From NCBI GenBank assembly GCA_005116835.1, contig SWDM01000018.1, forward strand, positions 1 to 64,000: a stretch of DNA of 64,000 bases, in the 5' to 3' direction. Of the stretch, positions 6,550 to 45,944 are shown in pieces. The first letter of the stretch is position 1; each line of letters starts with the position of its first letter. Below the pieces are notes generated by a model. It did no database searches, was not told the DNA's origin, and worked only from the letters and a program-made list of their open reading frames with translations. A program made the translations under genes and the position numbers. The DNA comes from Nitrospira sp. GTDB taxonomy: Bacteria > Nitrospirota > Nitrospiria > Nitrospirales > Nitrospiraceae.

Positions 6550-7188
6550 TTAGTCCTGATAAACTCCAGGATAAAGCTTTTTCACACAAGGCTGGCAGAT
6601 GCCGTGGCTGAATTCAGCCTCAGAATGTTCGCCGATATATTCCTCCAACTGTTGCCAAAATCCACCATCATTGCGGATTTTCTTACAGGATGCGCAGATT
6701 GGAATGAGCCCTCTAAGGACTTTGACATCCCGCAGTGCTTTCTGCAGCTCTTCGTTGCTTCGACGGAGCTCCGCTTCGCGGGCTTTGCGACAATCCATTT
6801 CTTTTTTCAGCACCAGCGCGGAGGAGACACGAGCCAGGAGTTCCATGCTGTTCACCGGTTTGGTGATGTAATCGTTCGCTCCCGCCGCAAAGGCTGCTTG
6901 GAGATTTGCGCGATCACTTTGAGCCGTAATCATGATGATGGGAATATCGCCTAGGTGCGGACGACTCTTAATTTGGCGGCAGGCTTCGACTCCATCCAAC
7001 TCCGGCATAAGGATGTCCATTAGAATCAAGTCGATGGGGACGGTCGACTTCTGGCTACCCAGATCGAGTATAGAGAATGCAGCCTTTGCCGAGTCAGCGC
7101 TCAGGAGGTCCGTGTGACAAGCCTTCCCAAGAATTGTGCGAAGGAGTACTTGTTGGTCCGGAGAGTCGTCGACGATAAGAATGCTCAT
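6550..7188 (-). CDS. Receiver-domain protein with C-terminal cysteine motif
   Basis: 212 residues: a receiver domain ([37 protein letters not shown]), a coiled-coil linker near 130-160 and a C-terminal module with two CxxC pairs, ICASCKKIR and [12 protein letters not shown], separated by an aromatic-rich HSEAEFSHG stretch. This tail occurs on many receiver proteins; it resembles a zinc ribbon but its role is not established. The start is set by AGGA about eight bases before ATG. It is the first gene of the operon and its receiver is closely related to that of the next gene, which suggests duplication. Confidence 0.88.
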
Positions 7189-7259
7189 GCTGATTCCTGC
7201 CGGGCGCTTGCACATTCGGTGCGAACAATCACCCTTCAGTATAGCAGGCGGCGAATCGG

Positions 7260-39356: not shown

Positions 39357-41537
39357 TTAAGACCGTTCCTGCCACGCCCGCATCCGCCTCGCCGTAATCA
39401 CCCCCTCCACACGCTCAATGGCTTTCAGTACCCGATTGATATGGTTGGTGTCCGACACCTCCACAACAAAATCCAGCACCGCTTTCTGATCTTCCCGTGT
39501 TGCGATTTCTGCGCGGCTGATGTTGGCATGACATTCCGCAATCGCGGAGGATACGTTCGCCAAGACCCCTGTTTTATCGACAGCGACGATGGACATTTTG
39601 ACCGAGTGTGTACTGGGTGTCGCGGTGTCCCATTCCACTTCCACCAGCCGTTCCTTATCGTAGTCCAACGCCTCAAGATTCGGGCAATCGACGGCATGGA
39701 TTGTGAGCCCGCGCCCGCGAGTGATATACCCAAGAATGCGGTCGCCTGGCACGGGATGGCAACAGCGCGACAACTGCATCAGCAGATCCCGAGACCCCTT
39801 GACCTGTACACCTGTGCCGTCGCTCTTTCCACCGACCGTCTTACGCGCAGCTGGAGGCTCTTGGGCCGGCGCCGACGTTCCGGATGAGAGCGCCGTGAGC
39901 TTGCCGATCACCTGCGACGTCGCCACTCTGCCAAATCCGACTGCCGCAGCCAATTCGTCGGTGTTCTCGAATCCAGACTGACGAGCAGCCTCTAACAGCT
40001 CAGCGGACTTGAACATCTTGGCCGGCGCCATGCCCTGACGGCGAAACTCCGACTCCAGTAAACGACGGCCGATCTCGACGCTGCGCTTCTGCTCTTCGAG
40101 TTTGATCCAATGTTTGATCTTGGTCTTCGCGCGCGAGGTGCGGACGAACTTCAACCAGTCCTTGTGCGGCGATTGAGCGGGCGACGTCAGAATTTCGACC
40201 GTATCCCCGCTGGCCAATTGATGCTTGAGCGGCACGATCTTTCCATCCACCTTGGCCCCGACACAATGGTCCCCGACCTGGGTATGGATTGCAAAGGCAA
40301 AATCGACGGGGGTCGATCCCCTCGGCAGTTCTTTCACAATCCCCTTGGGCGTGAAGACATAGACCACATCGTGGAAGAGGTCGAGCTTCACCGAGTCCAT
40401 GAACTGACGGTTATCCGTCAGATCTTCTTGCCACTCGACGAATTGGTGCAACCAACCGAAGGCCTTGCTGTCACGATCTGCAACCTGTCCCTGCTCTTTA
40501 TACTTCCAGTGCGCGGCGATGCCGTGCTCGGCGATACGATGCATCTCATCCGTGCGGATCTGAAACTCGACATGCTCTCCCTTCGGACCCACCACCGTCG
40601 TATGCAGAGACTGGTAGAGGTTGGATTTGGGAATCGCGATGTAGTCCTTGAAGCGCCCTGGGACCGGCCGCCAAATCGAGTGAATCACCCCCAGCACGGC
40701 GTAGCAATTCATCTTGGTATCGGTCACGATCCGTAGCGCCGTCAGGTCATACACCTCTTCGAACGTAATCGACTGCTTATTCATCTTTTGATAAATGCCG
40801 TAGAGATGTTTGGGCCGGCCGGAGACCTGTCCGATCAACTCGTTCTCTTCCATGGCCTTATGCACGAGCTGGCGGACTTCGTCGATGTATTGCTGCCGAT
40901 CTTCATCCCGTTTCGCCACACGGACAAGCAATGTCTCGTAGACCTCAGGCTTGAGATGCTTGAGACAAAGATCTTCCAGCTCGTTCTTAATCCATCCGAT
41001 TCCCAGGCGGTTCGCCAGCGGCGCATAGATCTCCAGCGTTTCCTGGGAAATTTCTTGCCGCTTGGCTGCGCCGAGATGCTCCAACGTGCGCATATTGTGC
41101 AAGCGATCTGCGAGTTTGATGAGGACGACCCGGATATCGTCCGCCATCGACAGGACCATCTTGCGGAAATTCTCCGCTTGTTTTTCCTCGTAGCTCCGAA
41201 ACGTGATCTTGCCGATCTTGGTCACCCCATCGACCAAATGCACGACGTCCTTCCCGAACTCTCGTTCGAGTTCGACGGGCGTCGCAACCGTATCTTCCAG
41301 GGTATCGTGCAGCAGCGCTGCGACGATGGAGGTGACATCCGATTTGAGTGAGGTCAGGACTCCGGCGACGGCGATGGGATGTTGAAGGTAGGGTTCTCCG
41401 GATCGGCGAAGCTGCCCTTCATGGGCTTTCGCAGAAAATTCATAGGCCTTGCGGACTAAACCAAGATCTGCATCGGCAGCATAGCCTCTGATCCGATCCA
41501 GCAGCTGGTCGAGATCTGTGACGGTTTGGTACAACAT
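39357..41537 (-). CDS. rsh: Bifunctional (p)ppGpp synthetase/hydrolase, RelA/SpoT homologue
   Basis: 726 residues, full-length Rsh. An intact HD hydrolase domain (LLHDTLEDT) sits at about 25-200. The synthetase domain (about 240-350) has YDLTALRIV, the RFKDYIA motif (RxKD, typical of bifunctional enzymes), SLHTTV and EFQIRT. Then come a TGS domain (VYVFTPKGIVKELPRG) and a C-terminal ACT domain (SIVAVDKTGVLANVSSAIAE) with a conserved cysteine-rich region before it. The enzyme makes and degrades the alarmone and would set the stringent response. It lies 11 bases after recJ and is co-transcribed with it. Confidence 0.95.
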   Translation of the reverse strand: MLYQTVTDLDQLLDRIRGYAADADLGLVRKAYEFSAKAHEGQLRRSGEPYLQHPIAVAGVLTSLKSDVTSIVAALLHDTLEDTVATPVELEREFGKDVVHLVDGVTKIGKITFRSYEEKQAENFRKMVLSMADDIRVVLIKLADRLHNMRTLEHLGAAKRQEISQETLEIYAPLANRLGIGWIKNELEDLCLKHLKPEVYETLLVRVAKRDEDRQQYIDEVRQLVHKAMEENELIGQVSGRPKHLYGIYQKMNKQSITFEEVYDLTALRIVTDTKMNCYAVLGVIHSIWRPVPGRFKDYIAIPKSNLYQSLHTTVVGPKGEHVEFQIRTDEMHRIAEHGIAAHWKYKEQGQVADRDSKAFGWLHQFVEWQEDLTDNRQFMDSVKLDLFHDVVYVFTPKGIVKELPRGSTPVDFAFAIHTQVGDHCVGAKVDGKIVPLKHQLASGDTVEILTSPAQSPHKDWLKFVRTSRAKTKIKHWIKLEEQKRSVEIGRRLLESEFRRQGMAPAKMFKSAELLEAARQSGFENTDELAAAVGFGRVATSQVIGKLTALSSGTSAPAQEPPAARKTVGGKSDGTGVQVKGSRDLLMQLSRCCHPVPGDRILGYITRGRGLTIHAVDCPNLEALDYDKERLVEVEWDTATPSTHSVKMSIVAVDKTGVLANVSSAIAECHANISRAEIATREDQKAVLDFVVEVSDTNHINRVLKAIERVEGVITARRMRAWQERS

Positions 41538-41548
41538 GGCGCGCGCAC

Positions 41549-43246
41549 CTACTTACTCACACTCGGTCGAACATCGCGAATGCGAAGCTGAATTCGGTCA
41601 CGACCGTTCCAATGGTTCAGTTCAGGCGTGAAGGCCAGATCGACCGGAGCGCGTAACGGAATACCCCGCTCCAGCAAGGACTTCATCCCGAACCCGATAC
41701 TATCGAACGGCATCGATTTCCCCTGCCGCACAGTCATTTTCAGATGTTTCTCCCCAACGGTGCGCGAATCCATCACTTCAAGACTGGTGACCGCAAACGT
41801 GGGCTCAGGATTGCCTGCGCCGAAAGGATGGAGCGAGCAGATCTCCTGGATCAACTGCAGATTCACTTCGTCCAGACGCACCTCGGCATCGACATTCAGC
41901 GTCGGAACCTTTGCGCCCTCATGGCTCCATCCGGCTACCACCTCGGAGAATCTGGCGCGAAACTCATCGATCCGAGACTCCTGAATCGTCACACCGGCAG
42001 CGCTGGGATGCCCGCCAAAACCCATTAACAGCTCCCGGCAAGAAGCCAAGCCCTGATAGAGGTCGAACCCGCCGGTTGTTCGAGCCGAGCCTTTCGCCAC
42101 ACCCTGCTCGTCGATCGCCATCACAATCGCCGGACAATGGAACCGATCGACCAAACGCGCCGCGACGATCCCGACCACCCCAAGATGCCAGTGCCTGGAA
42201 GCCAGTACGAGCGCAGCCGGCGCTTCGAGACCTTTGAGTGACGCCATCGCTTCCGACATGATATCCACTTCGATGCGTTGCCGTTCCCGGTTCAACTGTT
42301 CCAGCCGGTCTGCCAACTGTTGCGCCTCAAGGGGGTTTTCGGTCGTCAGTAACCGCACACCCAACATCGCGTCGTCCAACCGCCCCGCAGCATTGATGCG
42401 CGGCGCCAGTTTGTAGGCAATCGTTTCAGCCGTGCAATCCTGTGTCACCCCCGCCACCTGTTTCAGCGCCCGAACGCCGCAGCGCGCGCCGCGCGACAAC
42501 TGGACCAATCCCTCCCGCACAAAACTTCGATTCTCATCCTGTAATGGGACGACATCGGCAACCGTCGCCAAGGCCACAAGATCGAGCAAGGACTCCAACG
42601 GCACACCGCCAGCCCCATATTGCGACTGGTAGGCCTGAGCCACCTTATAGGCCAGCGCCGCGGAACAAAGACCGCGAAAGGGATACAGAGCCCCGGCCCG
42701 GTGGGGGTTAAGCACCGCCACAGCCGGAGGCATCTCCTCATCGGTCTGGTGGTGGTCAGTGACCACCACATCCATGCCGAGCCGAGCAGCCAATGCGATT
42801 TCTTTATGCGAGGTCGTACCGCAATCGGACGTGACCAGCAGCGAAATACCCTCATCATGCAACCGCTGTACGGCGCCGAGGTTGAGTCCATAACCTTCGC
42901 GTAGACGATGCGGAACGTAGGCGCGAACTTGCGCTCCTAACCCGCCAAAGAACGACAGGTAGACACTCGTCGCGGTGATCCCATCGACATCATAGTCGCC
43001 ATAAAAACAGATCTGCTCTTGAGTCGTCACAGCGCGATGCAGCCTCTCGACCGCCTGCTCCATATCGGGAATTAAAAACGGATCGTGCGGCGTCTGTAAT
43101 GACATCCATGTCGTCGCTTCATCCGCCGTGGTCACGCCACGAGCCAGAAACAGCGACGCTGTGGCAGGAGAAATCGAGAGAGCCTCAGCGAGTGAAGCCC
43201 GCTGAGACAGATTGATATCGCGGAAGACCCAGAGCTTCGACTTCAT
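41549..43246 (-). CDS. recJ: Single-stranded-DNA-specific exonuclease RecJ
   Basis: 565 residues with the DHH phosphoesterase motifs: FYGDYDVDGITATSVY, TSDCGTTSHKE, TDHHQTDE (DHH) and the later GGHPSAAGVT (DHHA1). RecJ degrades single-stranded DNA 5' to 3' in recombination (RecFOR) and mismatch and base excision repair. An AGAGGG site lies five bases before the ATG. It is the first gene of the recJ-rsh operon, downstream of pup. Confidence 0.95.
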   Translation of the reverse strand: MKSKLWVFRDINLSQRASLAEALSISPATASLFLARGVTTADEATTWMSLQTPHDPFLIPDMEQAVERLHRAVTTQEQICFYGDYDVDGITATSVYLSFFGGLGAQVRAYVPHRLREGYGLNLGAVQRLHDEGISLLVTSDCGTTSHKEIALAARLGMDVVVTDHHQTDEEMPPAVAVLNPHRAGALYPFRGLCSAALAYKVAQAYQSQYGAGGVPLESLLDLVALATVADVVPLQDENRSFVREGLVQLSRGARCGVRALKQVAGVTQDCTAETIAYKLAPRINAAGRLDDAMLGVRLLTTENPLEAQQLADRLEQLNRERQRIEVDIMSEAMASLKGLEAPAALVLASRHWHLGVVGIVAARLVDRFHCPAIVMAIDEQGVAKGSARTTGGFDLYQGLASCRELLMGFGGHPSAAGVTIQESRIDEFRARFSEVVAGWSHEGAKVPTLNVDAEVRLDEVNLQLIQEICSLHPFGAGNPEPTFAVTSLEVMDSRTVGEKHLKMTVRQGKSMPFDSIGFGMKSLLERGIPLRAPVDLAFTPELNHWNGRDRIQLRIRDVRPSVSK

Positions 43247-43342
43247 GAGGCCCTCTTGATTGACCCTGTGCTAACTATCTGACAATTAAGGGGATACTAG
43301 ACCTTAAGCCCCGCATTGTCAAACTGGTTGATTGGGTAATGA

Positions 43343-43489: not shown

Positions 43490-43687
43490 CTACTCCCCCC
43501 CTTTTTGCACGTAGTTCTTGACGAATTCTTCTGCGTTGGTTTCGAGCACGTCGTCGATTTCATCGACCAGCTTGTCGATGTCTTCTTTCAGTTTCTTGCC
43601 GGCTTCGACGACCTTCGGATTGGCCTTGACCTCTTCCTTCCCCTGAGGCTCCCGCTTGGGCTCCTGCTTGCGCTCTTGTTTTTCCAT
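43490..43687 (-). CDS. pup: Prokaryotic ubiquitin-like protein Pup
   Basis: 65 residues from the ATG at 43687, which has GGAGGT nine bases upstream; a longer frame to 43738 has none. The N-terminal half is charged and disordered (Lys/Glu/Gln rich). The C-terminus VLETNAEEFVKNYVQKGGE is the classic Pup end: a helix that binds the proteasomal ATPase, then Gly-Gly-Glu. Ending in Glu rather than Gln, it needs no deamidation by Dop before ligation to target lysines by PafA. It lies in the unusual setting recJ - pup - hppA, with no dop, pafA, mpa or proteasome gene in this window. Confidence 0.93.
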   Translation of the reverse strand: MEKQERKQEPKREPQGKEEVKANPKVVEAGKKLKEDIDKLVDEIDDVLETNAEEFVKNYVQKGGE

Positions 43688-43817
43688 CCCAGCACCTCCC
43701 GTGAATCCGGGGAACTCTCGCTGATCGGCCACCAGCACGATCCCGTACGATCACCATACTCCACGATTCTTTTAGACGTCAAGCTGAGCGAAGAAAGGTG
43801 AAACGGCGTAAGTCTTT

Positions 43818-43876
43818 AGCTATCAGCCGTCAGCGTTCAGCAATTAGCACTGAGCTGAGAGCTGAACGCTGATTGC
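43818..43876. repeat. 7-bp periodic array, two-armed (AGCGTTC type)
   Basis: Phased heptamers AGCTATC, AGCCGTC and AGCGTTC, then complements AGCTGAA and CGCTGAT, make an almost perfect hairpin 14 bases after the hppA stop. The units are of the same type as the array at 27822-27897. Confidence 0.8.
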
Positions 43877-43889
43877 TTCCATTTTCGTG

Positions 43890-45944
43890 CTATCCCACAA
43901 GCAGCGAGACGATCAACAGAGCCACGATGTTGATCACTTTAATCATCGGATTGATCGCCGGACCTGCCGTATCCTTATAGGGGTCGCCGACCGTATCGCC
44001 TGTCACTGCAGCCTTGTGAGTATCGGTCCCCTTCTTGCCCTGCTCTTCAATAAACTTCTTCGCGTTATCCCACGCGCCGCCGCCGCTCGTCATCGAGATG
44101 GCGACGAACAGACCGGTCACGATACTGCCGACGAGCATGCCGCCCAAGGCCTGCGGTCCCAGGATCACGCCGACCACGATCGGAGAAATGACCGGAATCA
44201 ATCCCGGCACCATCATCTTCTTGATCGCCGCCTGCGTGACGATATCCACGCAAGTCCCGTATTCCGGCTTGCCCGTTCCCTCCATGATCCCTTTGATCGT
44301 CCGGAACTGCCTGCGCACTTCTTCCACCACGAGGCCTGCCGCCTCCCCCACCGCTTTCATACAGAGGGCCCCGAAGATAAAGGGCAACATTCCACCCAGG
44401 AAGAGTCCGACTAAGACTGAAGGGTTGGAAAGATCGAACGTGCTCGCCCCGCTCCCTTTTGCCACCTCACGCGCATATTCGGCAAAGAGCACCACCGCCG
44501 CGAGACCGGCCGATCCGATCGCATAGCCCTTGGTCACCGCCTTCGTCGTGTTACCGACCGCATCCAATGGATCGGTAATATCCCGCACCTCTTTGCCAAG
44601 GTGGGCCATTTCCGCAATACCGCCTGCGTTGTCTGTGATCGGGCCGAACGCATCGATCGCCACCACGATACCGGCCATCGACAACATCGACACCGCCGCA
44701 ACCGCCACGCCGTACAAGCCGCCCGATGCCGCGCCGCCGCAGATCCAGTAGCTCCCAAGAATCGCCGCCCCGATCACCACGACAGGCCAGGCTGTGGCTT
44801 CCATTCCAACCGCTAGTCCTGCAATGATGTTGGTCGCATGGCCTGTTTCACTGGCCTTGGCAATCGCCTTCACCGGCGCATAACTCTTGGAGGTGTAATA
44901 ATCGGTGATAAAGACCAGCGCCAAGGTCACAGCCAAGCCGATCAAGGCCGCGAGGTAGTAGCTCAACCCGCTCACGCCGCCCACGCCATCCATGATTGAA
45001 GAGGTCACGGGGAAGAAGGCAATCGCCGCAATACCGCCTGCCACAAACAGGCCCTTGTAGAGCGCCGTCATAATCCCGCCGCCTTCGCTGACCTTCACGA
45101 AGAAAATACCGATAATCGTCGCGAAGATCGTGACGCCTCCGAGGGCCAGAGGATACAGAATCGGGGCCGTGGCTCCCTTAAACAGTGTGAAGGCCAAGAC
45201 CATCGCCGCCACCGTCGTCACCGCATAGGTTTCGAAGAGGTCCGCAGCCATACCGGCGCAATCGCCGACATTGTCGCCCACGTTGTCTGCAATCACAGCC
45301 GGGTTACGAGGATCGTCTTCAGGAATGCCTGCTTCGACTTTTCCGACGAGGTCGGCGCCGACATCTGCTGCCTTGGTATAAATACCACCGCCTACACGAG
45401 CAAACACCGAGATCAAGCTGCCGCCGAACCCTAGACTCAGCAAGGCATGAATCGCCTTCTCCTGCCCGAAAAACTGCGCAGCCAAGGTGTAGAAGAGGGT
45501 AATGGCCAACAAGCCCAAGCCGATCAACAAGAGTCCCGTCACCGCGCCGCCACGGAAGGCCACGGTCAGCGCCGCATTCATTCCCTTATGAGCAGCCTGC
45601 GCCGTCCGGACGTTTGCCCGCACCGCGATGACCATTCCCACATAGCCGGCCAGCGACGATGCGCCGGCTCCGATCAAGAAGCCGACCGCAGTCAGTAGGC
45701 CAAATTTGTCGGAAAACGCCCCCGCCCCCCACAAGAGAGCGAACAACACAGCCGCAACGACGGCGACCGTCTTATATTGGCGGTTCAGATAGGCGCTCGC
45801 GCCTTCCTGGATGGCCTTGGCAATGTCCTGCATCTTCTGATTGCCGGCGTCGAGTTTGAACACCCACATGGCCAGATACAGGCCATAGATGATGCCCGTG
45901 ACCGCCGCTATCAACGCAAACGTAATGATGACTGAGTCGCTCAC
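43890..45944 (-). CDS. hppA: Membrane-bound proton-pumping pyrophosphatase, K+-independent type
   Basis: 684 residues with about 16 membrane segments and the family signature [20 protein letters not shown], then [19 protein letters not shown]. It hydrolyses cytoplasmic pyrophosphate and exports H+ across the inner membrane. The motif [17 protein letters not shown] has Lys (and Val) where K+-dependent and Na+-pumping forms have Ala, so it is of the K+-independent H+-pump class. The start is GTG with a very strong GGGAGGAGAG site. It is a single gene with a hairpin array behind it. Such pumps recover energy in organisms living near the thermodynamic limit, as nitrite oxidisers do. Confidence 0.95.

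Follow-up and report, generated by a model that had tools for sequence, protein, structure and literature searches.

Identity of the Detached pup Gene

Pup is a small protein by which bacteria tag other proteins for the proteasome. In the stretch of 64,000 nucleotides of Nitrospira DNA analyzed here (the window), a pup gene stands alone, which raised the question of whether it serves an ordinary Pup-proteasome pathway, represents a second tag or has been put to another use. The first-pass annotation had described a Glu-terminal Pup at 43490-43687, alone between recJ and hppA, and this description agreed with the coordinates, the profile searches and the neighbors. The features of the region were the following:

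39357..41537, minus strand: relA/spoT homologue, an ORF named by sequence reading, next after recJ
41549..43246, minus strand: recJ, single-strand exonuclease (PF01368, PF02272, PF17768), downstream neighbor of pup in the conserved block
43294..43322, minus strand: putative separate recJ promoter, TTGACA-17-TAGTAT, between pup and recJ (consensus scan, conserved in the downstream alignment)
43490..43687, minus strand: pup, ATG at 43687 and stop codon TAG at 43490-43492, 65 aa ending in GGE
43693..43700, minus strand: Shine-Dalgarno sequence gggaggtg before the pup ATG (sequence, locus comparison and alignment)
43753..43782, minus strand: putative sigma-70-type pup promoter, TTGACG-18 nt-TATGGT (consensus scan and upstream alignment)
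43890..45944, minus strand: hppA, membrane pyrophosphatase (PF03030, 890 bits), upstream neighbor of pup in the conserved block

The translation of the minus-strand ORF (MEKQERKQEPKREPQGKEEVKANPKVVEAGKKLKEDIDKLVDEIDDVLETNAEEFVKNYVQKGGE, 65 aa) reached 77.4 bits (E 1.7e-21) against Pfam PF05639, well over the curated cut-off of 27, and 63.2 bits against NCBIfam TIGR03687 (cut-off 41.45). PF05639 was its sole Pfam family, and the UBact model PF20513 gave no match to this protein. The length lies inside the 50-90 aa expected of a Pup, the C-terminus KGGE fits the pattern GG[EQ], and the helical C-terminal half, which binds Mpa and PafA, is conserved. Residues 27-65 aligned with the Pup chains of 3m91, 3m9d, 7px9 and 4bjr, and solved Pup chains matched the protein far above chance (3m91_B, for example, with E 7.7e-11). 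The nearest named relatives were Nitrospira sp. CG24C and CG24E, whose Pup is 98% identical.

It is established biochemistry that a Pup ending in GGE can be used by PafA without earlier deamidation by Dop. Both forms, PupE and PupQ, have been described (PMC3511204). The Glu end stressed in the first-pass annotation was indeed present, but the importance given to it did not stand: the majority of Nitrospirota Pups end in GGE and some in GGQ, regardless of gene location, and the ending of the window Pup appears ordinary, being common to most relatives with the gene either detached or in the operon.

Transcription and Translation Signals

A strong Shine-Dalgarno sequence lies ahead of pup (ggaggtgctgggATG), and the string ggaggtgct-ATG was nearly invariant when the Nitrospirales pup loci were compared. 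The putative promoter, which precedes the start codon by about 65 nt, has kept its sequence and spacing in most close genera (TTGACG-N18-TAaGgT in the upstream alignment of the relatives); a search with the strict pattern gave no match in several less closely related genera. This call combines a consensus match with conservation and is putative. Since pup carries its own conserved sigma-70-like element upstream and recJ has a conserved element of its own, pup is most likely transcribed alone. A promoter common to pup and the mpa operon was also considered and was not seen, mpa having a different conserved TTGACC/TAGAAT element. An imperfect inverted repeat with 24-nt arms of the TCAGCGTTCAGC type lies between hppA and pup (window 43825-43877), and the relatives showed no conservation of it when their upstream regions were aligned.

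Position of pup Across Nitrospirota

Pup, UBact and PafA were searched for in 295 Nitrospirota genomes and the positions of the genes were compared, pup being counted as adjacent when it lay within 6 kb of pafA. The Nitrospirales sample comprised 98 genomes from three families (f1, f2 and f3), and 91 of these 98 carried pup together with a full-length PafA. In none of the 91 was pup near pafA, as against 36 of the 39 genomes outside the order; in the remaining three, pup and pafA were on different contigs, consistent with contig ends. The two genes shared a contig in 38 of the Nitrospirales genomes having both (44 kb to 1.41 Mb apart) and were on different contigs in the other 53; the present assembly likewise has pup and its partner operon on separate contigs, and the distances are those of the relatives. 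Reading of the DNA gave the order dop-pup-prcB-prcA-pafA in seven loci from other orders and mpa-dop-prcB-prcA-pafA, without pup, in eight further Nitrospirales loci. The unusual location was thus confirmed, yet it is a trait of the whole order Nitrospirales.

The block hppA-pup-recJ was found in nearly all sampled members of the three families, and where one partner of the block is absent, the other or relA/spoT is still there. In the relatives L059, L061 and L068, recJ has gone from the interval and relA/spoT stays beside pup; in L059 and L061 (family members G163 and G236) no recJ lies between pup and relA/spoT, the block being otherwise intact. When a named genome collection was scanned, the 23 contigs that matched best repeated the block (some of them belong to the assemblies already sampled), and the actinobacterial pup loci met in that scan were mostly in the operon.

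True loss of pup was considered for two genomes (G179 and G260) and rejected, as the state of the assembly explains both cases: G179 also lacks hppA, and in G260 hppA is cut by a contig end exactly where pup would come next. Seven pup-bearing genomes lacked a full-length PafA, with contig-end cuts in G216, G185, G276 and G086 and a fragmented gene in G092, the other two being G206 and G272. Two incomplete genomes of other orders (G069 and G106) showed two pup copies each and are possibly strain mixtures.

A detached pup was also observed in Rokubacteria (L117, about 7001-7198, and L170, about 6061). As in the present genome, the gene stands alone there and the Dop/PafA pair is on another contig, but its neighbor is the dCTP deaminase gene (dcd) instead of hppA and recJ; because of this different neighbor, the detachment in that phylum is apparently an independent relocation.

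Partner Genes on Contig C18

The assembly (3.94 Mb, 99.3% complete) is a draft of 24 contigs. The window Pup was the only PF05639 match in all of it, and the suggestion of a second Pup was not borne out, the other tag of the genome being UBact, of a different family. No Pup-ligase/Dop or proteasome-subunit genes were found on the 543-kb contig of pup itself. The genome search did locate them elsewhere, one of the options that the first-pass annotation had offered, as a full set on contig C18 in the order mpa-dop-prcB-prcA-pafA, all on one strand:

C18 19297-21066: mpa (TIGR03689, 735 bits)
C18 17782-19284: dop (TIGR03688, 555 bits)
C18 16927-17754: prcB (TIGR03690, 303 bits)
C18 16238-16930: prcA (TIGR03691, 301 bits)
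C18 14696-16198: pafA (TIGR03686, 564 bits)

All five proteins exceeded the curated TIGR equivalog cut-offs, so the canonical pathway set is complete. Adjacency of pup to dop, prcBA and pafA, which is usual but not essential for function, is absent here, and the gap between dop and prcB, the usual slot of pup, is empty and 27 bp long. The catalytic Asp of PafA, changed to Asn in 4bjr, is kept in the C18 protein (FYQD; alignment to 4b0t/4bjr), as is the corresponding Asp in Dop (LYVD; alignment to 4b0r). The alignment of the C18 Mpa to its mycobacterial counterpart takes in the N-terminal coiled-coil region, and the C18 protein ends in GHYL. Immediately upstream of mpa and in the same direction lie genes resembling thiE, thiG and thiS of thiamine synthesis (L009:14198-15955, minus strand), named from the sequence alone; ThiS has a ubiquitin fold.

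The UBact System and the Weighing of Alternatives

A complete UBact system was found on contig C16 (C16:97753-104515, equivalent to L010:5753-12515), with ARC, Dop-like, UBact, PrcB, PrcA and PafA-like genes in one run. The tag gene lies inside this operon:

C16 101122-101316: UBact, ending in RTGQ (PF20513 and NF033388)

No Pup model matched this UBact, which, being Gln-terminal, would need deamidation. An AMO gene of the amoA family was observed near the end of the same contig (C16:398023-398727; L172), and because of it this Nitrospira is probably a comammox organism.

The co-existence of the two systems, with pup, pafA and UBact together in 74 Nitrospirales genomes, and the homology of the C16 ligases to Dop and PafA would both be expected if Pup were common to, or had been switched to, the UBact enzymes, so that two tags used overlapping machineries. 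The distribution of the ligases speaks against such cross-talk, since Nitrospirales genomes gave at most two strong PafA/Dop matches without UBact and nearly always three with it. The third match tracks UBact and not Pup, and therefore the additional lineage of ligases goes with UBact, and the canonical pair with Pup. G019, a genome in a single contig, has UBact and no Pup, other genomes have Pup and no UBact, and therefore neither tag depends on the other. Moreover, the alignment of the C16 ARC with Mpa starts only shortly ahead of the OB domains, and this ARC has neither the coiled coil that binds Pup nor the GHYL end; because of this anatomy, the window Pup would pair with the C18 set, and cross-talk with the C16 enzymes is considered improbable. 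UBact was also rejected as the cause of the detachment of pup, as pup is detached in genus g13, which has no UBact, and lies in the operon in UBact-bearing genomes of other orders.

The isolation of the gene, away from every partner, had also suggested an orphan, either decaying without a role in the pathway or recruited to a new role outside pupylation. Apart from the complete partner set in the genome and the strict co-occurrence with full-length canonical PafA across the order, selection on the gene itself argues against this. The dN/dS values, calculated by the Nei-Gojobori method from 17 pup sequences of equal length (28 unsaturated pairs), had a median of 0.056, which indicates strong purifying selection. 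The ratio was 0.03 for residues 26-65 compared with 0.13 for residues 1-25, so the stronger constraint falls in the half of canonical sequence that binds Mpa and PafA. With an intact and conserved ribosome-binding site as well, an orphan is highly improbable. A foreign pup brought in by an assembly artefact or a mis-binned contig might be suspected in a draft of 24 contigs, but the gene lies 43 kb inside a contig of 543 kb and the hppA-pup-recJ block recurs in other assemblies, several single-contig genomes among them; this explanation is already contradicted and its probability is negligible.

Discussion

The window pup is thus very probably functional and supplies the only Pup to a Pup-proteasome pathway of the ordinary kind, the gene having been relocated in the ancestor of Nitrospirales and having its own promoter. 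In that ancestor, pup would have left the dop-prcB slot and settled between hppA and recJ, the enzymes and the proteasome remaining together as mpa-dop-prcB-prcA-pafA; a single relocation before the order radiated, with closure of the old slot, would be the simplest history. The gene is presumably expressed and its product is a likely substrate of the C18 enzymes. The pathway should run as in actinobacteria. PafA would join the gamma-carboxylate of the ready C-terminal Glu to substrate lysines with no deamidation, Dop would take Pup off, and the Mpa coiled coil would bind the Pup helix and pass the tagged protein to the PrcBA core. Separate transcription would let the supply of the tag be set independently of that of the enzymes.

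Compared with the actinobacterial locus (in Mycobacterium: mpa, dop-pup-prcB-prcA and pafA), Nitrospira has the same components, all at equivalog level. The C-terminal half of Pup is alike (DEIDDVLE..AE.FV..YVQKGG), and the catalytic Asp residues and the Tyr-Leu ending of Mpa are retained. The differences are the position of pup outside the locus, between hppA and recJ, and the terminal residue, Glu here and Gln in mycobacteria. Within the same phylum, a figure legend (PMC3511204) describes the system as present twice in Leptospirillum ferrooxidans, with no GGE on the 'Pup' of the second copy. As far as that legend describes it, this organism has a Pup system and a second, divergent one that would fit UBact, so the combination seems not to be new to the phylum; there, both tags are given in loci of identical gene context, whereas in Nitrospira pup is detached.

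Both GGE Pups and the pathway itself were already known, the latter also in Nitrospirota (PMC2588565 and PMC7947786). However, pup has been stated to be invariably the neighbor of a pafA gene (PMC2588565), and every organism capable of pupylation to have a rigidly conserved gene order (PMC3511204). Neither rule holds for Nitrospirales. Because surveys give pup as invariably beside pafA, its detachment here represents a modest new variant of gene order, not a new function. No report of it was found in the literature searched; the original UBact paper was outside that search, and an earlier mention there is possible.

In this whole order of nitrifiers, which are important in the environment, the departure from the rule is stable and the former slot has been closed. 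Co-transcription of Pup with its enzymes is thus not a necessity, and Pups placed like these should not be called orphans. A further reading, possible but rather unlikely in our estimation, is that two ubiquitin-like tagging systems operate in parallel in Nitrospirales and that Pup is separately controlled at transcription, the supply of the tag and not of the ligase being regulated, with a possible exchange of tags or division of substrates between them. The genomes of this order allow Pup and UBact to be compared side by side.
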